Below are positions 2,750 through 28,633 of a stretch of DNA of 32,786 bases, piece after piece. The stretch comes from Rhodospirillaceae bacterium (lineage in GTDB: Bacteria; Pseudomonadota; Alphaproteobacteria; Rhodospirillales; Rhodospirillaceae), in the NCBI GenBank assembly GCA_019752235.1, contig JAIEMI010000055.1, positions 1-32,786 of the forward strand, in the 5' to 3' direction. Under the pieces are notes generated by a model. The model had not been told where the DNA came from. It did not search any database and worked only from the letters and a program-made list of their open reading frames with translations. The translations under genes were made by a program, and so were the position numbers. The stretch's first letter is position 1. Each line of letters begins with the position of its first letter.

Positions 2750-3472
2750 TCAGTGTTTCACTGTTCCTCCGTCAACTACCAGGGTCTGGCCGGTCATGAA
2801 GGCCGAGCGATCGCTGGCGAGGAAGCTTATTGCACCTAATACGTCCGTGGGAAGCGCAACACGAGGAATAGCTTGCGAAGCTACCGTCTGCGCAACAACT
2901 TCGGGCGCTTCACGTTCAACGATCGCCGTTCCCTCGGTCCGCGTGAAGTTCGGCGCCACACAATTCACTGTAATACCGTGCGGACCGAACTCGGCAGCGA
3001 GTGAGCGAGACAGTCCAATCACAGCACCCTTGCTAGCAATGTAGTGGGCGAAATTTGGAAGACCCATAAAAAAGGTATTGGAAGCGATGTTGATGACCCG
3101 CCCCCACCCGCGCTCGCGCATTCCCGGCAAGACGGATTGACAAAAATTGACGACGGACTCCACGTTGGTGCTCATTACCCGCCGCCAGTCCTCAATACTT
3201 ATCGAAAGAAACGGCTGGATAGGATAGATTCCAACGTTGTTTACAAGGATATCCACTGGGCCCAAAACCTGTTCGGTTTTTTCAACAAACCGACGGACGC
3301 TTTCTCCTTCACTTGCGTCACAAGGCCCCTTAAGCCATTCATGGCCGACGTGCTCAAATGCTTTGAAATTCAGGTCCGCGGCGGCAACATGATAATCTTC
3401 CTCGCGAAACATCTGAGCAATAGAAGCGCCTATGCCGCGGGCTGCACCTGTGACAACAATCGTACGTGTCAT
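2750..3472 (-). CDS. SDR family NAD(P)-dependent oxidoreductase (FabG-like)
   Basis: A 240-residue classical short-chain dehydrogenase/reductase. The cofactor motif TGAARGIG is at residues 8-15, NNVG at 78-81, and the catalytic tetrad is complete: Asn103, Ser131, Tyr144 and Lys148 (YIASK). The C-terminus ends in the usual FMTGQTLVVDGG. It would oxidise a secondary alcohol or reduce a ketone in the cytoplasm. The Asp at residue 33 after the second strand (AADLN) is compatible with NAD(H) preference, an inference from the family. The ribosome site before the ATG is weak (AAGAGA). It is the last gene of a minus-strand run behind the TonB receptor and a second SDR but is separated from that SDR by 325 bases, so it may have its own promoter. 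Substrate unknown. Confidence 0.88.
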   Translation of the reverse strand: MTRTIVVTGAARGIGASIAQMFREEDYHVAAADLNFKAFEHVGHEWLKGPCDASEGESVRRFVEKTEQVLGPVDILVNNVGIYPIQPFLSISIEDWRRVMSTNVESVVNFCQSVLPGMRERGWGRVINIASNTFFMGLPNFAHYIASKGAVIGLSRSLAAEFGPHGITVNCVAPNFTRTEGTAIVEREAPEVVAQTVASQAIPRVALPTDVLGAISFLASDRSAFMTGQTLVVDGGTVKH

Positions 3473-3797: not shown

Positions 3798-4562
3798 TCA
3801 CCACGCGGTGGTTCCACCATCTACAGGCAAATTCGCGCCGGTGATCCAACTCGCATCATCAGAAGCCAAGAAAGCCGCTGCCGCGGCGATATCCTGCGGG
3901 CGTCCCACCCTACCCAACATAATCTTCGCCTCCATCCGGCCTCGCCATTCAGGATCCTCCATGAGTGCTTTACTCTGTTGAGTTTCAACCAGCCCCGGCG
4001 ATACCGCATTCGCGCGGATGTTGTGCTTCGCACCCTCCATTGCTAAGTGGCGCGTCATTCCGAGTATCCCTGCCTTCGCGGTAGAATGTGCTAAACCCGG
4101 AACGACTTCATAACAAATCATGCCAGAAACCGACGCGGTATTTACGATGACTCCATGCCCTTGGGCTACAAAGAGAGGCCACACCGCCTTGCAGGCGTGA
4201 AATACAAGGTCGACTTCATCTTTAATGGTCTTCTGAAATAGGTCATGCGACATATCGGAAAACCAAGAGAAATGTGCAAGAGCCGCATTATTGTAGAGTA
4301 TGTCGATCCGCTTCACATGATGTAAGGCGAAGTCCACGAGAAGTTGCGCACCGTGTGGCTCGCTAAGATCGCAGGGCGCCATCGAATACATGAGCCCACC
4401 AGCCATCTTTACTTCTGCCGCAGTCTCGTCGGCTCTTTCACCATCAATATCACAACCGATGACGGTGGCGCCTTCTTGACAAAACCGCAAACACGCCGCG
4501 CGACCGATGCTGCCACCACTCCCTGTAATAATTACAACCTTATTTGACAAGCATGGTGCCAT
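3798..4562 (-). CDS. SDR family protein lacking the catalytic Tyr
   Basis: A 254-residue short-chain dehydrogenase/reductase fold. The glycine motif TGSGGSIG is at residues 13-20, with Asp38 after the second strand (CDID) suggesting NAD(H), NNAA at 91-94 and the C-terminal WITGANLPVDGG. In the YxxxK motif the Tyr is replaced: the segment reads LAHSTAK, giving His159 and Lys163, with Ser146 thirteen residues before the His. The Asn of the tetrad is also not at its usual place (EVDLVFH). I recall an SDR subgroup with a similar LAHTTNK-type motif, so this may be an established variant rather than damage, and the rest of the protein is well preserved. It lies 57 bases downstream of the TonB receptor and is probably co-transcribed. 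The ribosome site before the ATG is weak. Confidence 0.85.
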   Translation of the reverse strand: MAPCLSNKVVIITGSGGSIGRAACLRFCQEGATVIGCDIDGERADETAAEVKMAGGLMYSMAPCDLSEPHGAQLLVDFALHHVKRIDILYNNAALAHFSWFSDMSHDLFQKTIKDEVDLVFHACKAVWPLFVAQGHGVIVNTASVSGMICYEVVPGLAHSTAKAGILGMTRHLAMEGAKHNIRANAVSPGLVETQQSKALMEDPEWRGRMEAKIMLGRVGRPQDIAAAAAFLASDDASWITGANLPVDGGTTAW

Positions 4563-4619: not shown

Positions 4620-6977
4620 CTAGTAGCGATAGCCGACCTTAAGATACCACGCCCGGCCGTCAGCATAGGCGCGACCGGCGTATTCGGGTACGGAACCGAA
4701 GAAGCCGGTTGTCCAATACGTCTTGTCGAACAAGTTGCTCACGCCAAAAGTTGCGGAAATACGGTCGTCGGGGGTTTTATAAGTGATGCTGGTATTTGCC
4801 ACTACATAAGCCGGAACCAATTCGGAATCCAGATTGGCCACCCCAAGACCGTTGAACTGCCGATCAACGCCATCAAGAGTGCCGTCAAAAATGAGGTGTC
4901 CCAGGGTTCCGATCTCGGCCTGGTAGTTCGCGCCCACGCTGAAGCTATATGGAGGCGAGGCAACGGGCTTGGCTTTTAATCCGGGCGCAAACCCGGTCAA
5001 ATCAGGCGCGAAAATGGGATGTGACGCGTCAGCACGTTTATATTTAGCATCTAGCAGGCCCAAGTTTCCGTATATCTGAAGATGCTTCACTGGCACCCAT
5101 GTTACTTCGAGTTCGATGCCGTTGATTCTCTGGTCGGAGAGCGCAACGGTTTGCGGAGAAATTAGATCCGCATGGTTTTTGAATTTGCTTGTGAACGCGG
5201 TTAAATTTGTTCGCAAGCTTCGGTCGAACCACTCAGCTTTGAGACCCGCCTCGAAGGTTTTCACGGTCTCTGGAGCCAAAAAATTTGTAGCCGGCCCCGC
5301 GCTGGTTGCCCGATCGCCCTCTAAGTTGCCGGACTTATAGCCCTGCGTATATGTGGCATATAAAAGGCTGTCCTGCGCGACTTGCCAATTGATCCCTACG
5401 CGCGGCGTAAATCGACTATAGTTCTTGCGTGGAGAAACTGGGAAACCTGGGTAAGGCGTTACGTTATCCTCGAATAGGGAGTTGTAACGAATTTTCTTTT
5501 TGTCCCAGGTCTGTCGAACACCGGCTAGAAGGGAGATATTCTCAATTACCTCCCAGCTTGCATCCAGGTAGGTCGCATAGCTTTTCGCGTTCAGGAAAGT
5601 GTCCTGATAAGAGCCCCCAAAGCGCTCCGTATATCCGGGATGGAAAACGGGCGAGAACTCTACGGGTACGCCGATTGTTGAGCCGTACTGTAACTGTCCC
5701 CATTGATTGCTAAAATAATATAGACCCGCGGTGTACTTCAATTTCTCGGCGATTGAACCCGAGAGTTGGAACTCTTGACTAAACTGTTTGTAGCTTTCTC
5801 CAGAATCCACCGTGCTGCCGATCGTTACTCCAAAGATTGTCGATCGGTTACCATTTGAACTGAGCTGCGACACGTAGTGACCATCATAATGACGGTAGCC
5901 GGTGATCGACTTGAAGGTTCCTATATCAGTATCAACAGTCCCCTTAAAAACAATGCCGTAACCATCAAATTGATGCCCCGGGCGGCGGTCAAAGCCGCCC
6001 TGCGCCGTAAGGGGTTCGAGCGAACCTCGCCGAACACCATATAACGGCTGAAAATTAGAAGACCCATTTTTAGAGAGCAGTTGAGCTAGGGAGCTTGGAT
6101 TGGGGGGCACAATCGGCGTCATAAGATTAACGCCGTCGTTCTGCTTAAACACGTCGCCGTTCAATTCAAACTCGGCGTTATCAAATAGTTTCCAAACTGA
6201 TGAAAGACGAGCACCATAGTGTTCGGTCTTCGAAATGTTCTTCGAGAGCACGTTGTTGGTATTGTCTACCAGCGTCGTAAAGCCGTCGTTTGATGTCCTG
6301 TATGCATCTAACTTAATACCGATCTTTTCCTGAAGAATCGGCACACTGAGATATCCTTTGGCGTCAAATCGGTTGTGGCTGCCCGTTGTTAAATTGATCG
6401 CACCCTGGACTTCGTATAGGTCTGGTTTACGAGGAACAAATTTTATCGCGCCTACAGTAGCGTTTCGGCCATATAGAGTGCCTTGCGGGCCCCTGAGCAC
6501 CTCTACTCGCTCAAAATCAATCATGTCGATATAAGCCGCTGCCGTGGATTGCAAGTATATGTCGTCGACAAAAACCGCGACGGCGTTTTCCGCATTCCAG
6601 TTGTTGTTGGCGCGTCCCGCACCACGCAGGTAAAACTGCGGCGCAGCAAAAGAAACCGTGTTCTTTGGAGCTTGGAAATTCGGAATAACCGACGACAGGT
6701 CCATTACGCTTTGCATATCGCGCTGTGCAAGCTGATCACCGGTCAGCGCCGACACCGCGATAGGAACCTCCTGTAGGTTCTCACTTCTCTTACGTGCGGT
6801 GACGATAATTTCCGCCATTCCACCACTGTCGACCGCTTCGCGCTCGCTGGCCGCTTGTTGAGCTAGCGTCTGATTGGATAGCGCCGCAAAGACAACGGCT
6901 GTCAGGCTCATGCCCAGCAAGCGCTGCGCCGTTCGGCGTAAACACGGGTTTGATTCAGGTGTGGAATGCAAAGTCAT
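4620..6977 (-). CDS. TonB-dependent outer-membrane receptor
   Basis: A 785-residue TonB-dependent receptor that imports a ligand across the outer membrane. The ATG at 6977 follows GGGGGAGGACTCT, much better than the ATG eleven codons upstream, and gives a signal peptide (RRTAQRLLGMSLTAVVFAAL, cleavage probably after TLA or AQ). A TonB-box-like EIIVTARKR follows, then the plug domain (VPIAVSALTGDQL, VEVLRGPQGTLYGRNATVGA) and a beta-barrel ending in an aromatic residue (KVGYRY). The length is typical of the CirA/FepA-like receptors that sphingomonads use for aromatic or terpenoid substrates as well as siderophores. No siderophore genes are near, and SDRs follow in the same direction, so I infer uptake of the pathway substrate. 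It is transcribed divergently from the LLM-MhpB operon. Confidence 0.93.
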   Translation of the reverse strand: MTLHSTPESNPCLRRTAQRLLGMSLTAVVFAALSNQTLAQQAASEREAVDSGGMAEIIVTARKRSENLQEVPIAVSALTGDQLAQRDMQSVMDLSSVIPNFQAPKNTVSFAAPQFYLRGAGRANNNWNAENAVAVFVDDIYLQSTAAAYIDMIDFERVEVLRGPQGTLYGRNATVGAIKFVPRKPDLYEVQGAINLTTGSHNRFDAKGYLSVPILQEKIGIKLDAYRTSNDGFTTLVDNTNNVLSKNISKTEHYGARLSSVWKLFDNAEFELNGDVFKQNDGVNLMTPIVPPNPSSLAQLLSKNGSSNFQPLYGVRRGSLEPLTAQGGFDRRPGHQFDGYGIVFKGTVDTDIGTFKSITGYRHYDGHYVSQLSSNGNRSTIFGVTIGSTVDSGESYKQFSQEFQLSGSIAEKLKYTAGLYYFSNQWGQLQYGSTIGVPVEFSPVFHPGYTERFGGSYQDTFLNAKSYATYLDASWEVIENISLLAGVRQTWDKKKIRYNSLFEDNVTPYPGFPVSPRKNYSRFTPRVGINWQVAQDSLLYATYTQGYKSGNLEGDRATSAGPATNFLAPETVKTFEAGLKAEWFDRSLRTNLTAFTSKFKNHADLISPQTVALSDQRINGIELEVTWVPVKHLQIYGNLGLLDAKYKRADASHPIFAPDLTGFAPGLKAKPVASPPYSFSVGANYQAEIGTLGHLIFDGTLDGVDRQFNGLGVANLDSELVPAYVVANTSITYKTPDDRISATFGVSNLFDKTYWTTGFFGSVPEYAGRAYADGRAWYLKVGYRY

Positions 6978-7292: not shown

Positions 7293-8522
7293 ATGGAAGT
7301 CGCATTCTTCATTCCACCAACCGTTGGACCACGCGAGGAACTGGTCAAGGGCTTGGCTGGAAGGCGAACCGATCTTTACCAAACGATGCTCGCACATCTG
7401 ACAGAAATTGCCCAATTCATGGATGAATTTGGGTACTTCGGCATGGGTTTTACCGAGCATCACTTGTCGGTCGAAGGTATGACTCTGTCTAACAGTCCGT
7501 CCATGCTTGGGGTCTATTTAGGATCACGAACCAAGCACAGTCATTTCGGCGCGCTGGGATACGTATTGCCTGTCCATGACCCGCTACGGGTAGCTGCGGA
7601 AGTCACTATGCTCGATCAAATGACTCAGGGTCGCGCCTTTGCCGGATTCGCGCGCGGCATTCAAACGCGCTGGATTAACACGATGGCCCAGCATCGTTAT
7701 AGCCTCGCCGATAATATTACCGATCCACAGCGATATGATGACGACCGTAGGCGCCTCTTTTATGAAAATCTCGAGATCATTTTGAAGGCATGGGACAACG
7801 ACACTTTCTCTCACAAGGGCGAATACTGGACGATTCCGGCGCCCAAAACCGCATGGCCCGGCCAACGCATGAGCAGAGAAATGGGTGGCCGCAGCCTTGA
7901 TGAGCATGGAAACCTGGTCGAAGTCGGCGTCGCACCGGCAATGTACAACCGTAAGCGGCCATTAATGTTCGAGCCCTTCTCTGTTAGCCATAAGTCCATC
8001 GAAACGGCCGCCGCCAACGGCCTGATCCCTATTGGAATCATGTGTGATCCTGCGATTGTTTCTGAGCAGGTCGACGCCGCACAGCGCGGTTGGGAGAGAG
8101 CCGGGGTCAAAACCAAGCGCGGAGAAAGGCTTGGCTTCGCGCGCTACATGATAGTGGCGGATACAGACGCAGAAGCCATGGAATTCGCCGAGCTGGCGAT
8201 GTTCGAATGGACCTATTTCTTCGCACAATTCGGCTTCAACGCCGTGCTCTCGAAGCCCGGAGAAGATTGGAAAGATATTCCAAGTACCATTCCCGAGTTT
8301 ATCAGGCGTGGCATGCTGTTTTGCGGCAGTCCCGACACCGTAAATAGGCAGCTTGAGGCAGCATTGAAAGTAATGCCAATTGATTATCTGTGGCTATTCA
8401 CCCCCAATGAGCTTCTACCGCAATCGAAAATGATGAAGCACTTGGATCTTATGACGCGAAAAGTACTGCCAAACTTTACCGACAAGATCGGTCCAAATAT
8501 ACACAGACGGCCTGCGGCTTGA
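7293..8522 (+). CDS. LLM-class flavin-dependent monooxygenase
   Basis: A 409-residue luciferase-like TIM-barrel monooxygenase that uses reduced FMN supplied by a reductase. The start is the ATG at 7293 behind CGGGAGGACTCC, giving MEVAFFIPPTV; an ATG ten codons upstream lacks a ribosome site. Family marks are FGYFGMGFTEHH near residue 50, a GYVLPVHDPLRVAAEVTMLD segment around residue 100, GRAFAGFARG, a middle segment containing FSHKGEYW, and the C-terminal CGSPDTVNRQL. Some members hydroxylate, others perform Baeyer-Villiger or desulfurisation reactions, and the sequence alone does not decide. It is the first gene of a five-gene operon with an extradiol dioxygenase, where a hydroxylation step preparing a diol ring would fit. 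No dedicated flavin reductase of the usual small type is visible nearby. Confidence 0.9.
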   Translation: MEVAFFIPPTVGPREELVKGLAGRRTDLYQTMLAHLTEIAQFMDEFGYFGMGFTEHHLSVEGMTLSNSPSMLGVYLGSRTKHSHFGALGYVLPVHDPLRVAAEVTMLDQMTQGRAFAGFARGIQTRWINTMAQHRYSLADNITDPQRYDDDRRRLFYENLEIILKAWDNDTFSHKGEYWTIPAPKTAWPGQRMSREMGGRSLDEHGNLVEVGVAPAMYNRKRPLMFEPFSVSHKSIETAAANGLIPIGIMCDPAIVSEQVDAAQRGWERAGVKTKRGERLGFARYMIVADTDAEAMEFAELAMFEWTYFFAQFGFNAVLSKPGEDWKDIPSTIPEFIRRGMLFCGSPDTVNRQLEAALKVMPIDYLWLFTPNELLPQSKMMKHLDLMTRKVLPNFTDKIGPNIHRRPAA

Positions 8523-8532: not shown

Positions 8533-9387
8533 ATGACCTATCAAAGCCTCTGGAGCGACGTGCATCGAATAGCCTTCCGCCAAGACTATATAGATGCCGG
8601 CGGCGTAAAGACTCGTTTTATTCAATCGGGACGCACTGAAGCGCCAGTCTTGCTTTTTTTGCACGGCACTGGTGGGCACGCTGAGGCATTTCTTCGTAAC
8701 ATCGAAGCTCATGCCAAGCACTTTAACACCATCGCGCTTGACTATCTCGGGCATGGATGGACCGATAAGCCCGACGTTGCCTACGAGCTACCCGCCTATT
8801 GCCAGCATTTGATCGATTTTATGAATGCCATGGGGATCGACAAGGCGTCGATCTGCGGCGAATCTATGGGTGGCTGGATCGCCGCTGCACTCGCCATAGA
8901 TTATCCTGAACGGGTAGAGCGCCTTATTCTCAATACCATGGGCGGCGCTACGATGATTCCGAAGGTCATGCAGACCGTCATTACGAACACAATGGCGGCA
9001 GTAGAGGATCCGGCGCGCTTTACTCGCGCAAGGCTTGAGTGGCTTATGGCCGATCCCGGTCAAGTCACAGATGACCTAGTCGCATGCCGTCAACGTATCT
9101 ATGAGCAGCCGTCCATGCGTGAGGCGATGCCCAAAATACTCTGCTTACAAGAAGAGATACCGCGGCGTCGAAATCTGATGACGGAAGATAAGATGTCGAA
9201 GATCACGGCGCCAACGCTCGTGCTCTGGACGACGAAAGATCCTACAGCCTCACCAGAGATCGGTCGGAAAATAGCCGGTTGGATTCCAAATTCCAAGTTT
9301 GTCGTCATGGAGAACTGCGGCCACTGGCCACAATATGAAGATCCGTTGACCTACAACCGCATTTCGCTCGATTTCCTGCTCGGATAA
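8533..9387 (+). CDS. Alpha/beta hydrolase, meta-cleavage-product hydrolase type
   Basis: A 284-residue alpha/beta hydrolase of the MhpC/BphD-like group. The oxyanion motif HGTGG is at residues 44-48, the nucleophile elbow GESMGG has Ser111, the acid is probably Asp236 in WTTKDPTA, and the base is His264 in NCGHWPQYE. In this group the enzyme splits the C-C bond of the dienoate produced by extradiol ring cleavage. Placement between the LLM monooxygenase (10 bases upstream) and an MhpB-type dioxygenase (20 bases downstream) supports that assignment. It could instead hydrolyse an ester or lactone. The ATG at 8533 follows GAGGCGGGAAAA. Confidence 0.85.
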   Translation: MTYQSLWSDVHRIAFRQDYIDAGGVKTRFIQSGRTEAPVLLFLHGTGGHAEAFLRNIEAHAKHFNTIALDYLGHGWTDKPDVAYELPAYCQHLIDFMNAMGIDKASICGESMGGWIAAALAIDYPERVERLILNTMGGATMIPKVMQTVITNTMAAVEDPARFTRARLEWLMADPGQVTDDLVACRQRIYEQPSMREAMPKILCLQEEIPRRRNLMTEDKMSKITAPTLVLWTTKDPTASPEIGRKIAGWIPNSKFVVMENCGHWPQYEDPLTYNRISLDFLLG

Positions 9388-9407: not shown

Positions 9408-10385
9408 ATGTCGGCGGAACTTATCTGCCTTGGACATGGGGGCCTCATGAATGTTGAGGAACTTCTGTCGGAGGCTGAACTAAACGCGGTAAAAATCGAG
9501 CTCGCGCGCGCAAAAGCTACTGCGCAGATAATGAAGCCTGATTTAGTTGTTCAATTCGGCAACGACCACAATAGTGGGTTCTCACTTCGCCTAATGCCGC
9601 CCTTTCTAATAGCGCTTCGCGCGAAGGCGCTTGGGGATTTTTATACGTCACAGGGCGAAATCTTAGTCAATGAAACACTCGGTAGGGCATTGGCGCGCCA
9701 CCTACACGAATCCGGTATCGATATCGCAACATCTTATGACGCTTTGCTGGATCACGGTTTCACGATGGCGCTCGATAAGCTGTTCTCCGGCATAGGAACC
9801 TGCCCTACCATTCCTGTGTTCACAAACTGTGGGGGAGATCTTCGTCCGCCGGTCAGGCGCTCACGCGCGCTCGGCGAAGCAGTTGGACGCTATTTTCGGA
9901 AGTACCACCCTGATTTGAAAGTTCTATATCTAGGTTCTGGAGGGCTCTCTCATGATCCTCCCTTGCCCCAATTCGAAAACTCGGCGCCTGAAGTTCAAGA
10001 GAGGATGATTAGCGGTGCGACGTGGACACCCGAGAGCCTTGCGCAGCGCACTCGTTGGGTAACAGAAACCGGGCGCGAGCACGGAGAAGGTGGGGGAAAC
10101 CTGCGTTCACTCAACCCTGATTGGGATCGGTGGATTTTAAAGTGTCTTACGGATGGCGATCTCGAGGCCATCGCGAACCTCGACGACGGCGCCGTAATAC
10201 AAATGGGCGGAAGAGGAGCAAGCGAGGTTCGAAATTGGCTGGCTGCTTTCGCGGCATTAGAAGCTCACGGTGGCGGCACATATCATTTGGAACATCAATT
10301 TTATCGGGCTCTACCGAGTTGGATCATGGGATTCGCTTTGGTTCACGCACGGACCGAACGATCAGCCGAGATGGAGGCGACATGA
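9408..10385 (+). CDS. mhpB: MhpB-like extradiol ring-cleavage dioxygenase (LigB superfamily)
   Basis: A 325-residue type III extradiol dioxygenase closely patterned on E. coli MhpB (2,3-dihydroxyphenylpropionate 1,2-dioxygenase). Shared segments include PDLVVQFGNDHNSGF near residue 45, MPPFLIALRAKALGDF, DIATSYDALLDHGF with His116, VLYLGSGGLSHDPP with His182, SLNPDWD, and near the end YRALPSWIMGFALVHARTE. The two His residues correspond to the catalytic pair of MhpB. It opens a catechol-type ring next to the hydroxyls using Fe(II) and O2. The neighbouring hydrolase would cleave the product. Its stop overlaps the next start as ATGA. The symbol denotes family membership; the real substrate may carry a different side chain. 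Confidence 0.9.
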   Translation: MSAELICLGHGGLMNVEELLSEAELNAVKIELARAKATAQIMKPDLVVQFGNDHNSGFSLRLMPPFLIALRAKALGDFYTSQGEILVNETLGRALARHLHESGIDIATSYDALLDHGFTMALDKLFSGIGTCPTIPVFTNCGGDLRPPVRRSRALGEAVGRYFRKYHPDLKVLYLGSGGLSHDPPLPQFENSAPEVQERMISGATWTPESLAQRTRWVTETGREHGEGGGNLRSLNPDWDRWILKCLTDGDLEAIANLDDGAVIQMGGRGASEVRNWLAAFAALEAHGGGTYHLEHQFYRALPSWIMGFALVHARTERSAEMEAT

Positions 10386-11302
10386 GTTTTGTTCACCCAC
10401 AGGCTCTCGCCTTTTTAGAGGCACTAAAACAGGGTTCCGCTCCGCCGGCGGACATTGAGGGACAACGCACTTGGTTTAGCCGGCTTTGGCGCAGCATGCA
10501 GCCAAAAGTAGGCGCGACGGTGACTTTCGAGCCGAGAACAATTGTGGCCGGAGGAAGGAGCATCGAGTGCCTAGTTTATAGACCGACAGGCAGCGTTGGT
10601 GCATTGCCTGTAATCCTGTTTTGCCACGGTGGCGGCGGCATAACGCTTTCTCCGGAGGACTTTGACCCCACCAGCCGCATCCTGGCACATCAGGTCAATG
10701 CGATCGTAGTCGTTCCCCGCTACCGCCTAGCACCCGAACATCCCTTTCCAGCCCCGCTCGAGGATTGTTTCGCTGTTTATCGTTGGTTGGTTGAATCTGG
10801 TGGGAAGTGGGACATTGACCAAGAGCGCATCGCGGTTGCAGGGGACAGTGCTGGAGGATATTTAGCTGCGGCTATCGCTCAAGAAGCCCGCCGACAGAGC
10901 ATCCCCCAACCAGCGGCACAAGCGCTCATCTACCCGATGCTAGACATGGCGGGGGCAAGCCCTAGCCGCTACGATCGAGCATATTTCGTGAGTGATGAGG
11001 CATTGAAGAGCACCATCGCACTTCACATTGGTAACGCCGTTCTTGATCCTCGGGCTTCCCCGTTACGCGAGCCCGATTTGGCCGGCATAGCGCCCACCCT
11101 CATTATTACAACTGATCTTGATCCACTGATGGACGAGGGACGCGCTTATGCACATCGACTTCGCGCTGCAGGAGTGAGTGCTTCTTACTTTTGTTACGAA
11201 GGGCAAGTGCACGGCTTCTTCTCCTTTAGCGGAGCGATGGAAGAGGGCAAGTATTGCATTGCTCACATATCAAGCTGGCTGCGCTGTAATCTCCATCCCT
11301 AG
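10382..11302 (+). CDS. Alpha/beta hydrolase, HSL (hormone-sensitive-lipase-like) family
   Basis: A 306-residue esterase-type alpha/beta hydrolase. HGGGG at 82-86 is the HSL-family oxyanion motif, GDSAGG at 154-159 carries Ser156, Asp247 lies in DLDPLMDEG and His277 in QVHGFF, so the triad is complete. Substrates in this family are short-chain esters or lactones. The ATG at 10382 overlaps the dioxygenase stop by four bases (ATGA), so the two are translationally coupled, and the following oxidoreductase begins one base after this stop. It probably removes an ester or opens a lactone formed by the monooxygenase or lactonase; that is inference. Confidence 0.88.
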   Translation: MSFVHPQALAFLEALKQGSAPPADIEGQRTWFSRLWRSMQPKVGATVTFEPRTIVAGGRSIECLVYRPTGSVGALPVILFCHGGGGITLSPEDFDPTSRILAHQVNAIVVVPRYRLAPEHPFPAPLEDCFAVYRWLVESGGKWDIDQERIAVAGDSAGGYLAAAIAQEARRQSIPQPAAQALIYPMLDMAGASPSRYDRAYFVSDEALKSTIALHIGNAVLDPRASPLREPDLAGIAPTLIITTDLDPLMDEGRAYAHRLRAAGVSASYFCYEGQVHGFFSFSGAMEEGKYCIAHISSWLRCNLHP

Positions 11303-12409
11303 ATGACTGAACAACTAGACTGCGTGGTCATTGGCGCCGGCGTCATTGGCCTGGCTTGCGCTGCGGCTCTTGGCAAGACTGGCCGGGAAGTGGTTGTATT
11401 GGAGGCTGCAAATCTCATTGGGAGTGGGACGAGCAGCCGAAACTCCGAAGTAATACACGCCGGGATTTATTATCCCGCAGGCTCTCTAAAAGCTCGACTC
11501 TGCAGAGCAGGCAAGGCTCAGCTCTACGCCTACTGCGAGGGGCGTGGCGTTCCCTTTAAACGCCTGGGTAAAATGGTGGTTGCTAGGCAAGCCTCTCAAC
11601 TCCCGGCCTTGGCACGGATAGCCGAGAGCGCCCTTAAAAACGACGTCAGAGACCTTGTTTGGTTATCCCGGACGGAATTAGCGAAGGTGGAGCCGTGTAT
11701 CGCCGGCGAGCATGCGTTATTTTCGCCGTCAACCGGGATTATTGACAGCCATTCCTTGATGTTAGCCCTTGAGGCAGATTTGCTGAATGCGGGTGGGATG
11801 GTTGTCTTACAAGCGCCTGTCCTGCGGGGCGAGGTTAAGGCGGACGGCTTTCTTCTCGACGTTGGCGGCGTGGACCCGATACGGATTAACGCTAAAAGTC
11901 TAATTAACGCCGCAGGACTTTCAGCTCAACAGATTGCTCAATCGATTAGGGGTATCCCACCTACGGCGGTTCCGAGTTCATTCTTCGCAAAAGGCCACTA
12001 CTACAGACTGAGCGGCCGCGCACCCTGCTCACATTTGATATATCCGCTACCGGAAGATGCCGGCCTCGGCATTCACCTTACGCTGGACATGGGTGGACAA
12101 GCAAAATTTGGACCCGACGTACGATGGGTATCGAGTATCGACTACACTTTCGATGATCAGCATTTTGATGCTTTTGTGGAAGCGATCAGACTCTATTATC
12201 CGGGCCTCGATGTCAGCCGCCTTAATCCAGATTACACGGGAATCAGGCCAAAACTAGGCGGCCCCGGAAGCCAGTTTGCCGACTTTCGCATTGATGGCCC
12301 TGCGCAGCACGGCATACCCGGCCTGGTCAATTTATTTGGGATTGAATCGCCCGGGCTTACCGCTTCGCTAGCGATAGCTGATTACGTAAGCCTTCTCATG
12401 AATTCATGA
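11303..12409 (+). CDS. FAD-dependent oxidoreductase, L-2-hydroxyglutarate oxidase (LhgO/DAO) family
   Basis: A 368-residue DAO-type flavoprotein. The FAD dinucleotide motif GAGVIG is at residues 11-16 with the acidic VLEA after the second strand, and the L-2-hydroxyglutarate oxidase signature SSRNSEVIHAGIYYPAGS is at residues 44-61. The C-terminal FAD-contact region reads GIRPKLGG and later LFGIESPGLTASLAIADYV. LhgO enzymes oxidise an L-2-hydroxy acid to the 2-oxo acid. Here it is last in the operon, right behind the esterase with no spacing, so its substrate is more likely a 2-hydroxy acid formed in the pathway than the housekeeping 2-hydroxyglutarate. Two bases separate it from the convergent SMP-30 gene. 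Confidence 0.87.
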   Translation: MTEQLDCVVIGAGVIGLACAAALGKTGREVVVLEAANLIGSGTSSRNSEVIHAGIYYPAGSLKARLCRAGKAQLYAYCEGRGVPFKRLGKMVVARQASQLPALARIAESALKNDVRDLVWLSRTELAKVEPCIAGEHALFSPSTGIIDSHSLMLALEADLLNAGGMVVLQAPVLRGEVKADGFLLDVGGVDPIRINAKSLINAAGLSAQQIAQSIRGIPPTAVPSSFFAKGHYYRLSGRAPCSHLIYPLPEDAGLGIHLTLDMGGQAKFGPDVRWVSSIDYTFDDQHFDAFVEAIRLYYPGLDVSRLNPDYTGIRPKLGGPGSQFADFRIDGPAQHGIPGLVNLFGIESPGLTASLAIADYVSLLMNS

Positions 12410-12411
12410 TT

Positions 12412-13329
12412 CTACTTGTTGAAGTTCAACCGCAATCCAGGACGCGGCCAGTTGATCGCGACAAGATGACCGGTGCATGACAGCGTGACGTAGGCGATTT
12501 TCATGTCATGACCACCAAAAGCGATATTGGATGTCCCGGGATCAGGTAGCGGAACGTGCTCGACAAAAGCACCTTCGGGAGAAATCACGGTAATGCCGCC
12601 ACGCGCCAAGGTTCCGACACAAAGATTACCGCAGGCTTCGACTGCCATAGAGTCGTATAAATCGAACCCCGGCGCGCCATAGAGCAACGCAGCTGAGTTT
12701 AGCAAGCCGGGCGGCACATTGACCTGACCGGGCGCCACAACTGGGTATTGCCATACCCGCCCAACCATAGTTTCAGCGACATAAAGCGTTCTACCATCGG
12801 GTGAAAGGGCGATGCCGTTGGGGTGGCTTCGGGGATACACCTGTTCAGATATAAAATTCCCATCAATCGTCGCATAGTAGACTGATCCAACATCTTCCGT
12901 GCGTGCGTAACGCTTTCCGTTGTCCGTGAACCAAAACCCACCTTGATCGTCAAAGACTAGATCATTGGGGCCTTTTAGGCGCTCATCTCCGCAATGCGTA
13001 TAAAGCGTTCGGACGTCCCCGGTTTGCAAATCGACCTGCTGTATACTTCCGCCGATGTAATTGTCCGGGGCAAAACCAGGAACCAACATTCCATTGGCTT
13101 CGTGCCACTCAAAACCGCCATTGTTACAAACATACACCTTTCCGTCAGGACCGATCGCAGCGCCGTTGGGGCCGCCGCCTAAGTTGGCAACGATCTCAAC
13201 TACTCCACTCGCCGTAACTCTGGTCAACGTCCCGCGGGCAATCTCTACGATTAGAATCGACCCATCCGCTAAATATATTGGGCCTTCTGGAAAGCGCAGG
13301 CCGGACGCTATAACGCGGCAATCAACCAT
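12412..13329 (-). CDS. SMP-30/gluconolactonase family lactonase
   Basis: A 305-residue six-bladed beta-propeller hydrolase of the SMP-30/gluconolactonase/LRE family, which opens lactone rings using a divalent metal. Metal-site segments are present: Glu in LRFPEGPIY near the N-terminus, Asn in LKGPNDLVFDDQGGFWFTD, a propeller repeat HPNGIALSPDGRTLYVAET, and the LYDSMAVEACGNL blade. The ATG at 13329 (MVDCRVIASG) follows GAGGGAGCCTCC; an ATG eleven codons further upstream is less well placed. It is convergent with the LLM operon and divergent from an SDR gene with which it shares a 129-base promoter. A lactonase fits downstream of a Baeyer-Villiger-type LLM reaction, which is inference. Confidence 0.87.
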   Translation of the reverse strand: MVDCRVIASGLRFPEGPIYLADGSILIVEIARGTLTRVTASGVVEIVANLGGGPNGAAIGPDGKVYVCNNGGFEWHEANGMLVPGFAPDNYIGGSIQQVDLQTGDVRTLYTHCGDERLKGPNDLVFDDQGGFWFTDNGKRYARTEDVGSVYYATIDGNFISEQVYPRSHPNGIALSPDGRTLYVAETMVGRVWQYPVVAPGQVNVPPGLLNSAALLYGAPGFDLYDSMAVEACGNLCVGTLARGGITVISPEGAFVEHVPLPDPGTSNIAFGGHDMKIAYVTLSCTGHLVAINWPRPGLRLNFNK

Positions 13330-13402
13330 GGAGGCTCCCTCACTTGAGTACCATCGCCTCATCGCATGAATCTGCTTGAAGAACGCCTGCTGAAAGATAG
13401 GT

Positions 13403-13458: not shown

Positions 13459-14220
13459 ATGACTGCACTGCTCGACGGTAAAGTTATCATCGTAACCGGC
13501 GCTGGGGGAGGCATCGGCGAGGCATCGGCGGAGGTGTTCGCACGCGAGGGCGCTGCGGTTATTCTCTGCGGTCGCAACGGAGGCACGCTCAAAGCCGTGA
13601 CCGAACGCATTGCCAGCGGTGGGGCTCGAGCCGCCTCAATAGTTGCGGACGTATCTAAAGGTGATGACGCGAAGGCATTGGTCGAATTTGCCTTGTCGAA
13701 GTTTGGCCGACTCGACGGAGCCTTCAATAACGCAGGCATCGACGGACCCATAGCATCCGCCGCCGACTACCCCGAGCAAGCCTTTGATGAGGTTATCGCT
13801 ATCAATCTCAAGGGCGTGTGGAATTGTATGCGCTTTCAAATCCCAGCCATGCTCAAGAATGGCTGCGGTTCAATAGTCAACAACGCCTCAGGCCTCAGCC
13901 AAGTTGGGCAGTTTGGTATGGCTGGATACTGCGCAGCTAAGGCGGGGGTTCTAGGTTTAACCCGGGCTGCCGCACTGGACTATGGACGTTATGGAATAAG
14001 GGTGAATGCCCTGTCTCCGGGGGTCATAGAAACACCTATGATGCAAAATCAGATGGAGCAATATCCGGATCTCCGCGACATGCTTGTCGCGCGGCACCCC
14101 ATCGGTCGATTGGGACAAGCCGGCGAAATTGCTGCCGCTGCCGCGTGGATGCTTTCTGATAAGGCGTCCTTCATGCTGGGGGCGAACATTTCAGTTGATG
14201 GCGGCTATACGGCAATTTAA
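13459..14220 (+). CDS. SDR family oxidoreductase (classical, intact active site)
   Basis: A 253-residue classical SDR. TGAGGGIG is at residues 13-20, NNAG at 90-93, and the catalytic residues are Asn116 (INLKG), Ser144, Tyr157 and Lys161 (YCAAK). GANISVDGG closes the protein. Arg39 after the second strand (CGRN) suggests NADP(H), by family knowledge. The ATG follows CTGGAGATTCGTCC. It would interconvert a ring or side-chain alcohol and ketone. Its TAA overlaps the TAA of the convergent MAPEG gene, leaving no intergenic DNA. Confidence 0.9.
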   Translation: MTALLDGKVIIVTGAGGGIGEASAEVFAREGAAVILCGRNGGTLKAVTERIASGGARAASIVADVSKGDDAKALVEFALSKFGRLDGAFNNAGIDGPIASAADYPEQAFDEVIAINLKGVWNCMRFQIPAMLKNGCGSIVNNASGLSQVGQFGMAGYCAAKAGVLGLTRAAALDYGRYGIRVNALSPGVIETPMMQNQMEQYPDLRDMLVARHPIGRLGQAGEIAAAAAWMLSDKASFMLGANISVDGGYTAI

Positions 14221-14745: not shown

Positions 14746-15846
14746 ATGAACGATAGCCCGCTTTTATCTCCCGTAGACCTCGGCAGCGTTACACTGGCCA
14801 ACCGGATAGTCATGGCGCCGATGACTCGCTTGCGCGCGCCCGACAACATGCCGTCACAGGCGATGGCGAATTACTACAAACAACGCGCAAGTGCCGGGCT
14901 GATCATCACCGAATGCACCATGGTATCGGCCACAAGCGCGGCATATATCGGCGCGCCGGGGATGTTTCACGACCGTTTTATTGACCCGTGGAGACGGATT
15001 ACGGAGTCTGTACACGAAAGCGGTGGCCGCATTTATCTCCAGCTTTGGCACAGTGGAAGAGTTGCGCACACTACCCTCATGCCAGACAACATGGCTCCTC
15101 TGGCCCCCAGTGCGGTACCCGCAAATACAGAGCTACACACGGCCCTGGGCAAAAAGCCGGCCTCTGCGCCTCGCGCTCTTGCATTGGATGAGATACGTGA
15201 CCTGACACGAGCGTTCGGAAGGGCCGCAGAACGTGCGCGAAAGGCGCAGTTCGATGGCGTCGAGATTCATGGTGCCTTTGGTTATTTAATCGACCAATTC
15301 CTCCAGGATGGCAGCAATAAGCGCACTGATGCATATGGTGGGAACTACGAAAACCGTACAAGGTTTCTGCTGGGGGTGCTCAGCGCAGTACAGCAGGAAT
15401 TCGGACGGAACGTTGGACTAAAACTTTCTCCAAGTAGTAGAGCCCACAGCATGTCAGACTCTGACCCCGTGGGGCTTTTTTCGTTTTTATTAGACGCACT
15501 CAACGACACAGATCTCGCATATCTCCACATGATGGAGGCGCTGCCGACCGACCACGCTTCAGGCGTTACGATAAAAAACATCACAAGATTTTCTCGAGAG
15601 CATTACCGGGGGACAATTATTGCTAATGGCGGTTTCGATCAAGCGCGCGGTGAGGACATAGTTCGATCTGGTTCGGCCAATCTCGTATCGTTCGGACAAC
15701 CGTTCATAGCCAATCCCGATCTCGTTGAAAGATTTCAAAATAATTTTCCTCTGTCGGAACCAAATTTTGCATACCTCTACGCAATTCCAGGGCAGCCTCT
15801 CGAACTCGGCTACACCGACTATCCGTTGATGGATACCACAAGATGA
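14746..15846 (+). CDS. Old yellow enzyme, NemA/OYE class, with altered active-site motif
   Basis: A 366-residue FMN-dependent ene-reductase of the classical OYE/NemA group. Family marks are NRIVMAPMTRLRAP near residue 20, GLIITECTMVS, the YLQLWHSGRVAH segment, VEIHGAFGYLIDQFLQDGSN at about 172-191, RTDAYGGNYENR, and IIANGGFD plus SFGQPFIANPDLV near the end. His175 and Tyr180 are kept, but the second carbonyl-binding residue, normally Asn or His, is Phe178 (HGAFGYL). This should change how a carbonyl or nitro substrate is held. The ATG at 14746 follows AGGATAGGACAG. Its TGA overlaps the ATG of the SnoaL-like gene, so the two are coupled. The natural substrate is unknown. Confidence 0.9.
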   Translation: MNDSPLLSPVDLGSVTLANRIVMAPMTRLRAPDNMPSQAMANYYKQRASAGLIITECTMVSATSAAYIGAPGMFHDRFIDPWRRITESVHESGGRIYLQLWHSGRVAHTTLMPDNMAPLAPSAVPANTELHTALGKKPASAPRALALDEIRDLTRAFGRAAERARKAQFDGVEIHGAFGYLIDQFLQDGSNKRTDAYGGNYENRTRFLLGVLSAVQQEFGRNVGLKLSPSSRAHSMSDSDPVGLFSFLLDALNDTDLAYLHMMEALPTDHASGVTIKNITRFSREHYRGTIIANGGFDQARGEDIVRSGSANLVSFGQPFIANPDLVERFQNNFPLSEPNFAYLYAIPGQPLELGYTDYPLMDTTR

Positions 15847-16385
15847 CGCCTGAAGCGGAACGCCTGCAAACACTGTGGGATCGAGGAGAAATTGAGCGGG
15901 TCATGCTTGATTTTGGCAAAGCTCTTGACCGCGGGGATTGGCATCTCTACCGAGCCTGCCTAGCCGACCGCATTAGAATAGACTTTGAGCGCTTAACTGG
16001 CTTTGCGGAGGTGGAAGTTAATGCGGATGAATGGGTACGGTTTGCTTCCCTTGCGCTAGGCCCCGTCAAAAGGCACCACCAATACTCTAACTTTTCTTGC
16101 GTTATTAACGGGGATCACGCCGATACAACGATGTACATGGTGGCACGGCACTGGAAAGCGACAGACCGGGGCGGAGCAACAAATACGCAATACGGGTGGT
16201 ATGAAAACCTATTCCAGCGCATCGAGGGGACGTGGAAAATCAGCCGAATATCGCATCAGTTTCAGTGGATTGATGGAAACGACGCGTTACTGGATTTCTC
16301 TGAGCCGGAACTTGCCGCTCAGATGAGAGTCGTGTTCTCACCAGCGAATTTGATCAAACCATTAACCCCAGCTGTCGCGCCTTAA
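15843..16385 (+). CDS. SnoaL-like / NTF2-fold protein
   Basis: A 180-residue protein of the NTF2-like, SnoaL-type group, which includes isomerases, dehydratases, cyclases and small hydroxylases. Recognisable parts are the helical start with IERVMLDFGKALDRGDWHLY, RACLADRIRIDF, the RHHQYSNFSCVINGDHADTT strand pair, and the closing WYENLFQRIEGTWKISRISH. The start overlaps the ene-reductase stop (ATGA). Similar proteins occur in many sphingomonad catabolic clusters, often without assigned chemistry; a dehydratase or isomerase acting on the ene-reductase substrate or product is plausible. Its last 32 bases overlap the convergent regulator gene. Confidence 0.75.
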   Translation: MTPEAERLQTLWDRGEIERVMLDFGKALDRGDWHLYRACLADRIRIDFERLTGFAEVEVNADEWVRFASLALGPVKRHHQYSNFSCVINGDHADTTMYMVARHWKATDRGGATNTQYGWYENLFQRIEGTWKISRISHQFQWIDGNDALLDFSEPELAAQMRVVFSPANLIKPLTPAVAP

Positions 16386-19125
16386 ATACAGCTTCAGACC
16401 GGCGATTAACACCCAATTTTGCATATATCTGCTGAAGATACCATTTTACGGTACCTAAAGTGAGCCCCGTCTCGCTAGCTATTTGATTATTCGTCATACC
16501 GCTCGAGATCATAAGAAGCACCTCAGACTCGCGATTGTTAAGGGAAGCGTACTGTCCACCTATCTCGCTCAAATCCACCTTATGAATAACGCGTTCACGA
16601 ATGTCGCTACCCATCACGCGCAGGACTGCCTGGTGATAAACTGCTAGCCCCGCATCGACCCCTATAGGTAAAATCTCCATCTGCTCCATTTGAGCCCTAA
16701 CAGCGGGGTTCGCGTCCGCAAATGACCGCAAAAATTGTCCCTTCAAGCCCATTTGTAGCGCGAGACGCAGAGACCTGTGCGCGGCCTTTTGGTCCCCCAA
16801 TAAAATCTGAACATGTGACAAGAGGACAGCAAAACGAATCCCGAAACGAACATTCTGGTTATCTTCGAGAAATCTCAACCAGCGGCGCAAAAGCTTTTCT
16901 GCTGCCCCGAGATCATTTTGAATCAGCGCTATTTGGCCTGCGGCAAACGCCCGCGCCGCCGAAGCCGTTGTAACTCCCCGACCGAGTGGGTGGTTGTCGG
17001 GGTCAGTCGAAAGATTGTAGAGCAGACCTATTCGTCTGACTTCGCCATAGTCACCAGTTCCGGAAAGTATTCTGACACGATCAGCGACCAGAAACGCATT
17101 CAGTCGCTCAAATTGGCGTGAGATTGCGATTTCTTGTCCTTCGTCTAACGCTTGTAGAGCTTCCGCAGTTGAGCTCAATGCGGCAATTCTCACTCTGGTC
17201 TGGTATCCAGCAACCAATTGATCGACGAGACCAGTTTGTGTTGCTAAGGGCAAGAATTCATCGACGAGTGCCTTTGAAGTTTCTATATCATTCCGCTCAT
17301 ATAGAAGCTCTGCAAGGTGTAGGGCCGGGAGAGCAGTCGTGGGATTCGATCTTCCAACGACATCAACAGCCGTATCAAATGCAGCCGCAAAAATAGCCTG
17401 CGCCTTATCTAAATTCCCTATTTGGGAATATCCCGAGCCTACAATACAGTCGTGCCAGATCGTGCCCCACCGATTGTCATGACTTGTGAGAATTTCGCGC
17501 GCCCGACCAGCGGCCGCTAAGTTGCGACAGTTAAATTGTTCTCTCTCAGCGTAGATAAGCGAGGTTTGGGATACGGCGTCTTCAAACGGAGAATAACCGC
17601 CCTCCATAGTTGGCCATTGCCTCGCCAGCCCCTCGGCTCTGGGCATATCATCGCTTAGAATCGCAATCTGCATGTCGCAATAAGTCAATTTGCGTTGGAT
17701 TTTATTTACGTTAAAACCGGATTTCCTCCATTGCTGAATGCGCTTGGGATTTACGCAATTTGCCCGAACTTCGTTTAAGAAGCGCCGGGCGTCACTAAAT
17801 CTCCACGTGAGGGTGAGCGAGTAAACATATTCGAGTAACAAATGTGGATGGTCTTTAAGTAGCTCCACCGGAAGCATTTCTAGATAGCGTGAAAGAGTCG
17901 CGCCGCGGCCGGATTGGATGAGTGTAGATGCAACGCGCTCTAATACTTCGACGGAAAATACCGGGTTACCGGATGCGAAGGCGTGCCTTAACGCATGGAC
18001 CAATAAATCTCTATCTTCAAACCAGGCCGCCGCTCGTTGATGCAGATCCGCCCTTCGCTCAGATAGCTTATGCCCGCCGATCGCTACGACTGCATCTGCG
18101 AATAGCTGATGGAATCGAAACCAGCCGGGCTGGCCAACCCTGGAAAGAAATAACTGCCTAGCTTCCAAATCCGCTAGTAGCGTCGAACTGTCACTGCGGC
18201 TCATAACGTGGTCACATAGTTCGGCGGAAATCTCACCAAGAATGGCGGCCTCTTGAACAAAACTGAGAACAGGCTTTGGCAAGTGGTCAAGGACTTCGTC
18301 CCGTAGAAATTCTTCCACTCCAGTTTCAGGGCCGAAGACCTTGTGCTTAACTTGACCTGCTGCCTGATTAACCAAAGATAGCGCCATCAACTTCAAACCG
18401 GCAGGCCACCCCTCGACGCTTCGGACAATCGTATCCACAAAGTCGGCATCCAGTGACAGCAATCCGTTGCGTACGAAAAAGTCGTGCGCTTCGGAAATGC
18501 TAAATCTAAGTTCCGAAGCGCCGATTACCATGACCTCGCCAAGCGCGCGTAGTTTTGCGATACGAAAGTGTGGATGAGTTCGCGAGCCGAGCACCAAATG
18601 TAAGCGTTTGCTGCCGGCATTCGCCATAAAACCGATCATATCCAGTACTTGCTGGCTGGTAATGGCGTGTAAATCATCAATCAGCACCACAACATCGAGA
18701 GCTAATCTTTCGAGTACATTGATTATCTCAACGCAGACGGAATGCGCATTCATATCGGCGCGAAATTCGATTGCCGATTGAATTTGATTATTTAATTCAG
18801 GGATATTGTAATTGATTGAGGAAACAAGATGATTGACGAATTGAATCGGGTCGTTGTCGCTCTCATCTACAGTTAGCCAGCAGCTAAAGGAACGGTCGAC
18901 TTTGATGTTGAGCCACCAATCACACAAGGTGGTCGTTTTTCCATAGCCTGCGGGAGCCATGACGAGAGTAAGAGCGACATCAAGGGACTGAGACAATTTC
19001 TCGAACAACTGAACGCGTGGCACAGTATCAGATGGCCTGATACGAGGCGGAGTTAACTTAGTAGCTAATACGCTACTCGAAAGCTTGACCCCATTTCTTC
19101 GGGGTTGATGCCGGGCGCTAGCCAT
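16354..19125 (-). CDS. MalT/LAL-type LuxR family transcriptional regulator
   Basis: A 923-residue ATP-binding LuxR regulator of the MalT-like LAL class. The N-terminal ATPase has Walker A in MAPAGYGKTT (56-65) and Walker B in VVVLIDDLHAI. The family's ELRFSISEAHDFF and SVEGWPAGLKLMALSL segments follow, then a long TPR-like middle. The C-terminal LuxR helix-turn-helix begins LNNRESEVLLMISSGMTNNQ and continues through GLTLGTVKWYLQQIYAKLG. Members sense a small ligand through the TPR region and activate transcription in an ATP-dependent oligomer. The ATG follows GTGAGGTCGAAGT. It lies 9 bases behind the RibB-like gene, so the two form an operon, and it is the likely regulator of the surrounding genes. 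Its 3' end overlaps the SnoaL-like gene. Confidence 0.92.
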   Translation of the reverse strand: MASARHQPRRNGVKLSSSVLATKLTPPRIRPSDTVPRVQLFEKLSQSLDVALTLVMAPAGYGKTTTLCDWWLNIKVDRSFSCWLTVDESDNDPIQFVNHLVSSINYNIPELNNQIQSAIEFRADMNAHSVCVEIINVLERLALDVVVLIDDLHAITSQQVLDMIGFMANAGSKRLHLVLGSRTHPHFRIAKLRALGEVMVIGASELRFSISEAHDFFVRNGLLSLDADFVDTIVRSVEGWPAGLKLMALSLVNQAAGQVKHKVFGPETGVEEFLRDEVLDHLPKPVLSFVQEAAILGEISAELCDHVMSRSDSSTLLADLEARQLFLSRVGQPGWFRFHQLFADAVVAIGGHKLSERRADLHQRAAAWFEDRDLLVHALRHAFASGNPVFSVEVLERVASTLIQSGRGATLSRYLEMLPVELLKDHPHLLLEYVYSLTLTWRFSDARRFLNEVRANCVNPKRIQQWRKSGFNVNKIQRKLTYCDMQIAILSDDMPRAEGLARQWPTMEGGYSPFEDAVSQTSLIYAEREQFNCRNLAAAGRAREILTSHDNRWGTIWHDCIVGSGYSQIGNLDKAQAIFAAAFDTAVDVVGRSNPTTALPALHLAELLYERNDIETSKALVDEFLPLATQTGLVDQLVAGYQTRVRIAALSSTAEALQALDEGQEIAISRQFERLNAFLVADRVRILSGTGDYGEVRRIGLLYNLSTDPDNHPLGRGVTTASAARAFAAGQIALIQNDLGAAEKLLRRWLRFLEDNQNVRFGIRFAVLLSHVQILLGDQKAAHRSLRLALQMGLKGQFLRSFADANPAVRAQMEQMEILPIGVDAGLAVYHQAVLRVMGSDIRERVIHKVDLSEIGGQYASLNNRESEVLLMISSGMTNNQIASETGLTLGTVKWYLQQIYAKLGVNRRSEAVFKARQLGLMV

Positions 19126-19134
19126 ACTTCGACC

Positions 19135-19800
19135 TCACGCGAACTGTGCAATATCGAGCCCACCAGCCATGACAATTATCTGGGGCTCCTCGCCACTTCG
19201 CAACAACGAGAGATAATCAGTAACGGTGTTGGAAATTCTAACCAGAACCGGCAATTTGAGCGATCGCGCAAGTTCAGTACAGTAAAGAGATGAAGCTACG
19301 TCGCCGGTCTCGTCCAGGACGTCACACCAAGCTATCGCAAGCGCGTCCCCACGCCGCTTAGCATAATGGAATGCCACTGCCGCAAGCGATGAGTCTGCTC
19401 CAATTTCCTCCGGCACTATGATTGGCATAATATGCCCCGGCGTAACGAGGTCTTCCGATAAGGCCGCTGGCGATCCTAGTGTGCGCAAAGTAAGCGCCCG
19501 TTCATCGGCTGAAATCCCCGTTTCGGCGCACGCTGCGGCCTCAACACTGACAATATACGGAGGCATTTCACGTCTTCGACTGGAATTAGTCAGTGGCGGG
19601 AGCCCGAGTTGATAGGCACGCGTTGCCGAGATGGCAGCGCTTATGATGCCGCGAGCATTGCGGGCCATCAAATTCACATCAGTGGGCTGGATTGAATCAG
19701 CCTGCCCAAAGAATATGCCTCGGCCTTTCCCACAAAGCGTTTCACGATCAACCATAATTGACAGAGAAATGGTCGGCGGATTTGCGTGCAGGCCGGTCAT
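19135..19800 (-). CDS. DHBP synthase (RibB)-like protein with altered active site
   Basis: A 221-residue protein with the framework of 3,4-dihydroxy-2-butanone-4-phosphate synthase: VNLMARNARGIISAAISATR, AYQLGLPPL, PPYIVSVEAA, TGISADERALTLRTL (94-108), SEDLVTPGHIMPI (115-127) and a late WCDVLDETGDVAS. Key motifs are not intact. DRENEGD is reduced to DRETLCG, the Arg of RPGH is Thr, the GHTEA metal-binding motif is replaced by ADSSLAA, the Asp-Arg of the TGISA motif reads Glu-Arg, and the Glu after CE is Asp. The His of PGHI remains. Normal riboflavin synthesis is therefore doubtful. The frame is long, uninterrupted and 9 bases upstream of the LuxR gene, so it is unlikely to be decaying. It may bind a ligand or partner rather than catalyse. 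The start at 19800 has a weak ribosome site; an ATG at 19755 is possible. Confidence 0.72.
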   Translation of the reverse strand: MTGLHANPPTISLSIMVDRETLCGKGRGIFFGQADSIQPTDVNLMARNARGIISAAISATRAYQLGLPPLTNSSRRREMPPYIVSVEAAACAETGISADERALTLRTLGSPAALSEDLVTPGHIMPIIVPEEIGADSSLAAVAFHYAKRRGDALAIAWCDVLDETGDVASSLYCTELARSLKLPVLVRISNTVTDYLSLLRSGEEPQIIVMAGGLDIAQFA

Positions 19801-20225: not shown

Positions 20226-20238
20226 CACCATCAAAACC

Positions 20239-28631: not shown

Positions 28632-28633
28632 CC

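Follow-up and report, generated by a model that had tools for sequence, protein, structure and literature searches.

A DHBP synthase homologue without the metal-binding and catalytic residues, encoded beside a LAL-type LuxR regulator

The 32,786-nucleotide contig JAIEMI010000055.1 of a Rhodospirillaceae bacterium (assembly GCA_019752235.1; the whole stretch is called the window here) encodes a 221-residue homologue of the riboflavin-biosynthesis enzyme RibB, 3,4-dihydroxy-2-butanone 4-phosphate (DHBP) synthase, that has lost the metal-binding and catalytic residues of the family. We name this protein RibL. It belongs to a conserved clade, and in five genomes its gene stands directly upstream of a gene for a LuxR regulator of the LAL (large ATP-binding LuxR) type, within a cluster of catabolic enzymes. 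The reading that we tentatively favour, although we put it at somewhat less than an even chance, is that RibL, after the loss of DHBP chemistry, became a small-molecule-dependent partner of this LAL/STAND (signal transduction ATPases with numerous domains) regulator. The two genes, whose lengths and 9-base spacing agree with an initial annotation of the window, are as follows.

19135..19800 (-): RibL, 221 aa, RibB fold, without the metal-binding and catalytic residues of DHBP synthase
16354..19125 (-): LAL/MalT-type LuxR regulator, 923 aa, with a P-loop NTPase, a MalT-type tetratricopeptide repeat (TPR) and a GerE helix-turn-helix (HTH); 9 bases after RibL

Loss of the DHBP synthase active site

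As first annotated, RibL has the framework of DHBP synthase: its Pfam DHBP_synthase score of 94.7 bits clears the cut-off of 26.4 and places it in the family, while it stays far below the RibB equivalog cut-offs (TIGR00506, 71.4 bits against the 177.45 needed). When RibL of the window is aligned with other RibBs and with E. coli RibB, which supplies the numbering, both the DRENEGD loop and GHTEA are gone. Cys and Lys occupy the E38 and E40 columns, so that there is no acidic metal loop; Arg150, His153 and Thr154 are lost, and Ser and Asp replace Cys67 and Glu174, respectively. Thr107, His136 and the TGIS and PGH motifs are retained. The initial annotation had named these two motifs and RPGH as missing, and the last was overstated. 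RPGH reads TPGH in RibL, with its His retained, and SPGH or TPGH also occurs in intact alphaproteobacterial RibBs, including both other RibBs of the window's genome, which is why we do not count this change as a loss. The Arg that RibL did lose is E. coli R150, three residues ahead of the GHTEA His.

Structure prediction, which covered the RibL monomer only, gave a model with a mean pLDDT (predicted local distance difference test score) of 74.9. This model matches DHBP synthase 1tks (Z 22.1, 177 residues, 2.2 Å), RibBX 6mnz (Z 22.1, 188 residues, 3.6 Å) and, in Foldseek, 2riu (E 5e-13), a fold match that is not independent of the 14 other RibB-family rows included in the model's input alignment.

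Judged by its residues, RibL appears to descend from a DHBP synthase and to have ceased to make DHBP. It is conceivable that it still forms this product via a variant metal site and so provides the flavoenzymes of the cluster with more flavin. The fold is kept, and motif-intact RibB genes adjoin luciferase-like monooxygenase (LLM) genes, including the genome's own RibBA, which adjoins an LLM and a flavin reductase gene. We nevertheless consider this very improbable, because the metal ligands and catalytic residues are lost throughout the clade described below, and because mutation of Glu39, which together with Glu41 and His154 is catalytic in the Vibrio cholerae enzyme (E. coli numbering is one lower), is reported in PMC5228156 to abolish activity in two species. 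Moreover, the genome (assembly 79.5% complete, with the window as its contig 9) holds two other RibB-domain genes that keep DRENEGD and GHTEA, C27 (287 bits, at a contig end) and C31 (272 bits). Thus, RibL is not needed for riboflavin, and its candidacy as the housekeeping RibB was rejected on these intact motifs.

The RibL clade and its pairing with LuxR

A LuxR query led to Sphingobium algorifonticola TLA-22 (L048), in which a RibL 46% identical to that of the window lies directly upstream of a LuxR that is 51% identical. A profile search of 397 genomes of this species' family gave seven matches (L048, L073, L074, L075, L077, L079 and the weak, separate L078); a class sample (367 genomes) added L119 and the genus Sphingobium (94 genomes) added L167, which, with the window and without L078, makes nine clade members. 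No further clear relative was found in the window's own order (317 genomes), where two other matches at threshold keep the catalytic motifs, in the genus of G445 (13 genomes), or among the matches listed for a phylum sample (378 genomes). The thresholds of the class and phylum samples were too loose, and only the top matches among those listed were used. A plain protein query against genome contigs, a seven-row alignment against viral contigs and the RibLs of L075 and L077 against plasmids at 1e-15 returned no relatives.

The losses extend to the whole clade. The E40 equivalent is gone in all nine members, an acid occupies the E38 column in only two, and the equivalent of the metal-binding H153 is always Leu or Phe (9/9), so that an alignment of the catalytic residues bears out their annotated loss. 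All nine share a new Cys and retain T107 and H136, and Asp stands at the E174 position in 8/8 members, L079 being truncated before it. The RibL proteins form one clade with 100/100 support in trees of which the first alone held L119 and the second alone L167; L119 was dropped from the second (branch 6.8), and the truncated L079 was in neither. The close relatives L075 and L079 differ by 14 changes in 136 codons, which gives a ratio of nonsynonymous to synonymous substitution rates (dN/dS) of about 0.19, and three members from LuxR-paired loci have nonsynonymous proportions (pN) of 0.35-0.38 against synonymous ones (pS) of 0.71-0.77. These are signs of purifying selection. A decaying pseudogene or a chance leftover would fit the degenerate active site and the low identity among members, but it is scarcely credible, since the frame is open in all nine loci (in L079 to its contig end), the clade has its own invariant residues, and the operon position is kept in genomes of two alphaproteobacterial orders; this candidate was rejected on the purifying selection.

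The regulator is of the LAL type, as first proposed. It resembles MalT and other LAL/STAND LuxR proteins in its N-terminal P-loop (motif PAGYGKTT), MalT-like TPR (TPR_MalT, 68.5 bits) and C-terminal GerE HTH (51.4 bits), the NTPase models remaining below their own cut-offs. MalT is its best equivalog match, but at 298 bits, under the cut-off of 537, it is not a MalT orthologue by score, and it differs from MalT in that its gene accompanies that of RibL among catabolic genes. The pair recurs with the same substitutions in five genomes (window, L048, L073, L074 and L167), and its presence in four genomes besides that of the window indicates that the pairing is not due to chance. RibL is directly upstream of LuxR in 5/5 complete loci of the close LuxR clade. 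The gap measures 9 bases in the window, about 23 in L048, about 19 in L073 and 53 in L074, and the genes overlap (ATGA) or abut in L167, a spacing that suggests co-transcription. A C-terminal tail ending GL(x4)[FL]A is found in all five LuxR-paired RibLs; L075, L077 and L119 do not have it, and L079 is truncated before it. RibL thus shares with DHBP synthase (RibB and the RibB domain of RibBA and RibBX) the fold, the Pfam match and the TGIS and PGH motifs, and differs from it in the acidic metal loop, R150, H153, T154 and C67, in the E174-to-Asp exchange, in the clade-wide Cys and, in LuxR-paired members, in the tail.

Shared by the five pair loci are a short-chain dehydrogenase/reductase (SDR), an SMP-30 protein, a DAO-family oxidoreductase, hydrolases, a LigB dioxygenase and an LLM, with extra genes between SDR and LuxR in L167. 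RibL and LuxR diverge together: relative to the window, RibL is 37-52% and LuxR 44-57% identical in the four other pair loci, whereas eight catabolic enzymes of the same loci keep 53-89% (LLM 77-89%, seven further enzymes 53-74%). The remaining genes of the cluster in the window are listed below.

15843..16385 (+): SnoaL-like protein, convergent with LuxR; also in L048, L049 and L073, but absent from the fetched stretches of L074 and L167
14743..15846 (+): old yellow enzyme (OYE) family protein (Oxidored_FMN); in L048, L049, L073 and L074, not in L167 as fetched
13459..14220 (+): SDR oxidoreductase
12412..13362 (-): SMP-30/gluconolactonase
11303..12409 (+): FAD-dependent DAO-family oxidoreductase (LhgO in the initial annotation)
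10382..11302 (+): alpha/beta hydrolase (Abhydrolase_3), first ATG at 10382
9408..10385 (+): LigB-type extradiol ring-opening dioxygenase
8533..9387 (+): alpha/beta hydrolase (Abhydrolase_1)
7293..8522 (+): LLM, the most conserved cluster protein; start picked among several ATG
4620..6977 (-): TonB-dependent receptor, retained together with the cluster at 71% and 74% identity in two of the four other pair loci
3798..4562 (-): SDR, sharing 67% and 71% identity with copies next to the LLM region in L048 and L073 and only 46-48% with matches in the other two loci
2750..3472 (-): SDR, sharing 58% and 69% identity with its copies from L048 and L073 and only 30-43% with matches in the other two loci

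The locus had been described as rich in flavoenzymes, and two OYEs, one LLM and one DAO-family protein are indeed present, but the second OYE (288-1472) lacks a close counterpart in the stretches fetched for the other pair loci, where its best match is to the other OYE at 32-34% identity. The two SDRs and the TonB receptor at the far end are 58-74% identical in L048 and L073 and 26-48% in L074 and L167, where the matches may represent other genes. Although they share a class, the window's genome and the Sphingobium family fall into different orders, and the occurrence of the locus in both suggests that it probably moved between orders; alternatively, the contig may have been wrongly binned into the window's genome. 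Another contig, titled Pseudomonas sp. PGPPP3 (L049, 1-3227), carries SnoaL, OYE and a LuxR that is 67% identical across its C-terminal portion. This contig ends inside LuxR, before any RibL, and is perhaps a mis-binned sphingomonad contig. Elsewhere in the window, about 1.9 kb between RibL and a zinc-type dehydrogenase (19801-21656) hold no convincing gene, and hydantoinase/oxoprolinase A and B and an amidohydrolase (26613-31560), apparently a separate pathway, are without a counterpart in the stretches fetched for the other pair loci. Two tRNA genes lie at the contig end (32534-32606 and 32621-32701 (-)), and no other RNA element, such as a flavin mononucleotide (FMN) riboswitch, reached gathering score in the window.

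Flavin-dependent neighbours of RibL

The initial annotation had tentatively linked RibL to flavin or sugar-phosphate status, and its neighbours support a role tied to such chemistry. An LLM gene is present in the region of 9/9 RibL loci: adjacent in three, 8.7-10.6 kb off in five and about 18 kb off in L167. The three adjacent cases are L075, L077 and L079, where RibL lies directly behind the LLM gene, within about 30 bases, while in L119 RibL is near a LigB gene, and an LLM and a flavin reductase gene are about 10 kb away. In two of the five pairs a flavin reductase gene also meets RibL, overlapping its start (ATGA) in L074 and overlapping it or ending 2 bases ahead of it in L167. Small home-made profiles (12 and 5 seeds, respectively) served to call LLM and flavin reductase genes, and the LLMs of L048, L073, L074 and L119 also by Pfam. 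The five-seed profile detected no flavin reductase in the window, L048, L075, L077 or L079 loci, and a search of window positions 19701-21700 revealed no remnant of one upstream of RibL.

Intact RibBs are also found in such company. Fifteen plasmid RibB loci (L121-L135) were hand-picked among the matches listed, and are not a random sample; 13 of them had catalytic motifs, and an LLM is near seven of these 13, the other six being without. Specifically, an LLM, often with a flavin reductase, lies within 5 kb of motif-intact RibBs on plasmids L121, L128, L130, L131, L132, L133 and L134 and on the genome's own contig 31 (L045), as if LLM modules carried their own flavin supply. Three Bacillota RibBA loci (L170-L172, 3-kb flanks) had no LLM. 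The RibB family is thus often in the company of LLMs, and the emptied RibL clade has kept that company.

It is possible that RibL has been re-purposed as an LLM-pathway enzyme that acts, without a two-metal site, on the LLM or ring-cleavage product, with Cys91, His123 and Asp160 (window numbering) as its site and LuxR as a merely convenient neighbour. The LLM in every RibL region (directly upstream in three), the occurrence of RibL without LuxR in at least three loci, and a clade-specific Cys that together with the retained His and the acid resembles a site under selection are all consistent with this idea. However, RibL is less conserved than the eight catabolic enzymes of the same loci, and in the five pair loci it is coded with the regulator rather than in the enzyme operon. 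We therefore regard such an enzyme as doubtful to unlikely.

Another scenario is that RibL is a non-catalytic accessory of the monooxygenase that binds flavin, or the flavin reductase or LLM, and helps deliver FMNH2. Such a function would fit the flavin reductase genes at the RibL start in L074 and L167, and LLMs near plasmid RibBs point the same way, as do two loci with degenerate RibBs, a Peribacillus plasmid with an LLM and a riboflavin kinase, and L120 with an LLM, a DAO and an FMN reductase. However, no flavin reductase was seen by the five-seed profile in the five loci named above, and DHBP synthase is not known to bind flavin, so that an accessory function seems unlikely.

The degenerate RibB of the Peribacillus frigoritolerans plasmid NZ_OY970401.1 (L124, 4923-5900) is RibBA-like but has neither DRENEGD nor GHTEA, and its gene stands in line with those for an LLM, a lactonase-family protein and a riboflavin kinase; in the annotation of Peribacillus sp. 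R9-11 (L173) this gene is split in two. The protein may group with the RibL clade (94/99 support), a p-AU (approximately unbiased test) of 0.158 being obtained for grouping with Bacillota RibBA instead, and it is not counted among the nine. Nor are L078 (4186-4800), L120 (7334-7948) and L125 (about 4965-5570), which form a second, separate branch of RibB-like proteins without DRENEGD and GHTEA. In L120 the LLM, DAO and FMN reductase genes precede the degenerate RibB, whereas no LLM was found in 20 kb of L125/L140 or on the 5-kb contig of L078. Four of 14 RibBs from a viral collection (L142, L143, L144 and L145, IMG/VR) keep DRENEGD and have GQTEA for GHTEA, that is, Gln at the metal-binding His.

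A possible role as partner of the regulator

For the LuxR-paired branch, operon position, tail and a similar rate of change lead us to prefer, tentatively, RibL as a partner of the regulator. RibL most likely began as a flavin-supply RibB copy in an FMN-dependent LLM degradation module. It would then have lost the metal site, whereas its fold and some pocket residues (Thr107, His136 and an acid at 174, E. coli numbering) persisted, and the clade, which appears to travel with LLM degradation modules, would have gained its cysteine. In the lineage of the window, RibL may have come to be co-transcribed with the LAL/STAND regulator, and it would hold LuxR inactive, or release it, depending on a small molecule. 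Origin as a flavin-supply copy, ligand binding and physical contact with LuxR are the parts of this proposal that we infer. The fuller version, in which an emptied RibB serves as a dedicated ligand-sensing partner of a STAND/LAL regulator, with a flavin reductase in some genomes, and couples the state of flavin-dependent oxygenation to pathway expression, is on the doubtful side.

The partnership, already suspected in the initial annotation, gains from the five pairs, but several observations weigh against it. While LuxR stands beside RibL in all complete loci of the close LuxR clade, no regulator gene of this type occurs in the fetched stretch of 3/9 clade members (L075, L077 and L119), and L079, whose contig ends inside RibL, neither reveals nor excludes a LuxR behind it (the near-identical L075 has none). 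In three catabolic plasmid clusters with LAL relatives (27-30% identity), of which one also contains LLM and flavin reductase genes, RibB genes are absent within 4 kb, and thus this type of regulator does not need a RibB-like partner in general. The five pairs are not independent, since they go back to one shared ancestral locus. Low identity alone is weak evidence for a regulatory role, because the SnoaL protein, which is not a regulator, is only 47% identical in L048 (68% in L073), and the two SDRs are 30-48% identical in L074 and L167. As to the association with LLMs, eight of the nine RibL genomes (all but that of L167) hold 3-18 LLM genes each, and with so many LLMs and the clustering of catabolic genes a uniform model underestimates chance proximity; here, too, the five pair loci amount to roughly a single ancestral event. 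Finally, the 11 intact RibB loci that have no LLM nearby (L034-L044, 4.7-15 kb each) were taken from other genomes of the order and do not serve as matched controls.

The proposed restraint of a MalT-type regulator by a protein from an enzyme family has a possible parallel in MalY and Aes, whose folds are other than that of RibL. According to PMC10427625, these two proteins, described there as enzymes, inhibit MalT by direct binding, whereas contact between RibL and LuxR is proposed here by analogy. A RibB-family gene in an induced two-component flavin monooxygenase cluster is also known from Rhodococcus sp. D-6, where orf2560, 42% identical to a RibBA, lies between ippA1 and ippA2; the available part of that report mentions no LAL regulator (PMC12442392). 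The progesterone cluster of Caenibius tardaugens has LLM and LuxR-type genes, and 'RibB' is absent from the main text of the report on it (PMC12239570). Among the full-text literature matches listed, a scope outside which most subscription papers fall, no report pairs a RibB-derived protein with a LuxR regulator.

Homology-based annotation treats RibB as an essential vitamin enzyme, and members of the RibL clade are therefore likely to carry riboflavin labels despite their lost residues. If RibL proves to be an enzyme, it would represent new chemistry on the DHBP synthase fold. If RibL instead controls the LAL regulator, it would add a partner derived from a flavin enzyme to the protein inhibitors of STAND regulators, of which few are known, and it would offer a route to the inducer of an LLM and LigB ring-cleavage cluster found in two alphaproteobacterial orders. 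Should it do so by sensing a ligand, RibL would define a new class of regulator partner built from a riboflavin-biosynthesis enzyme.

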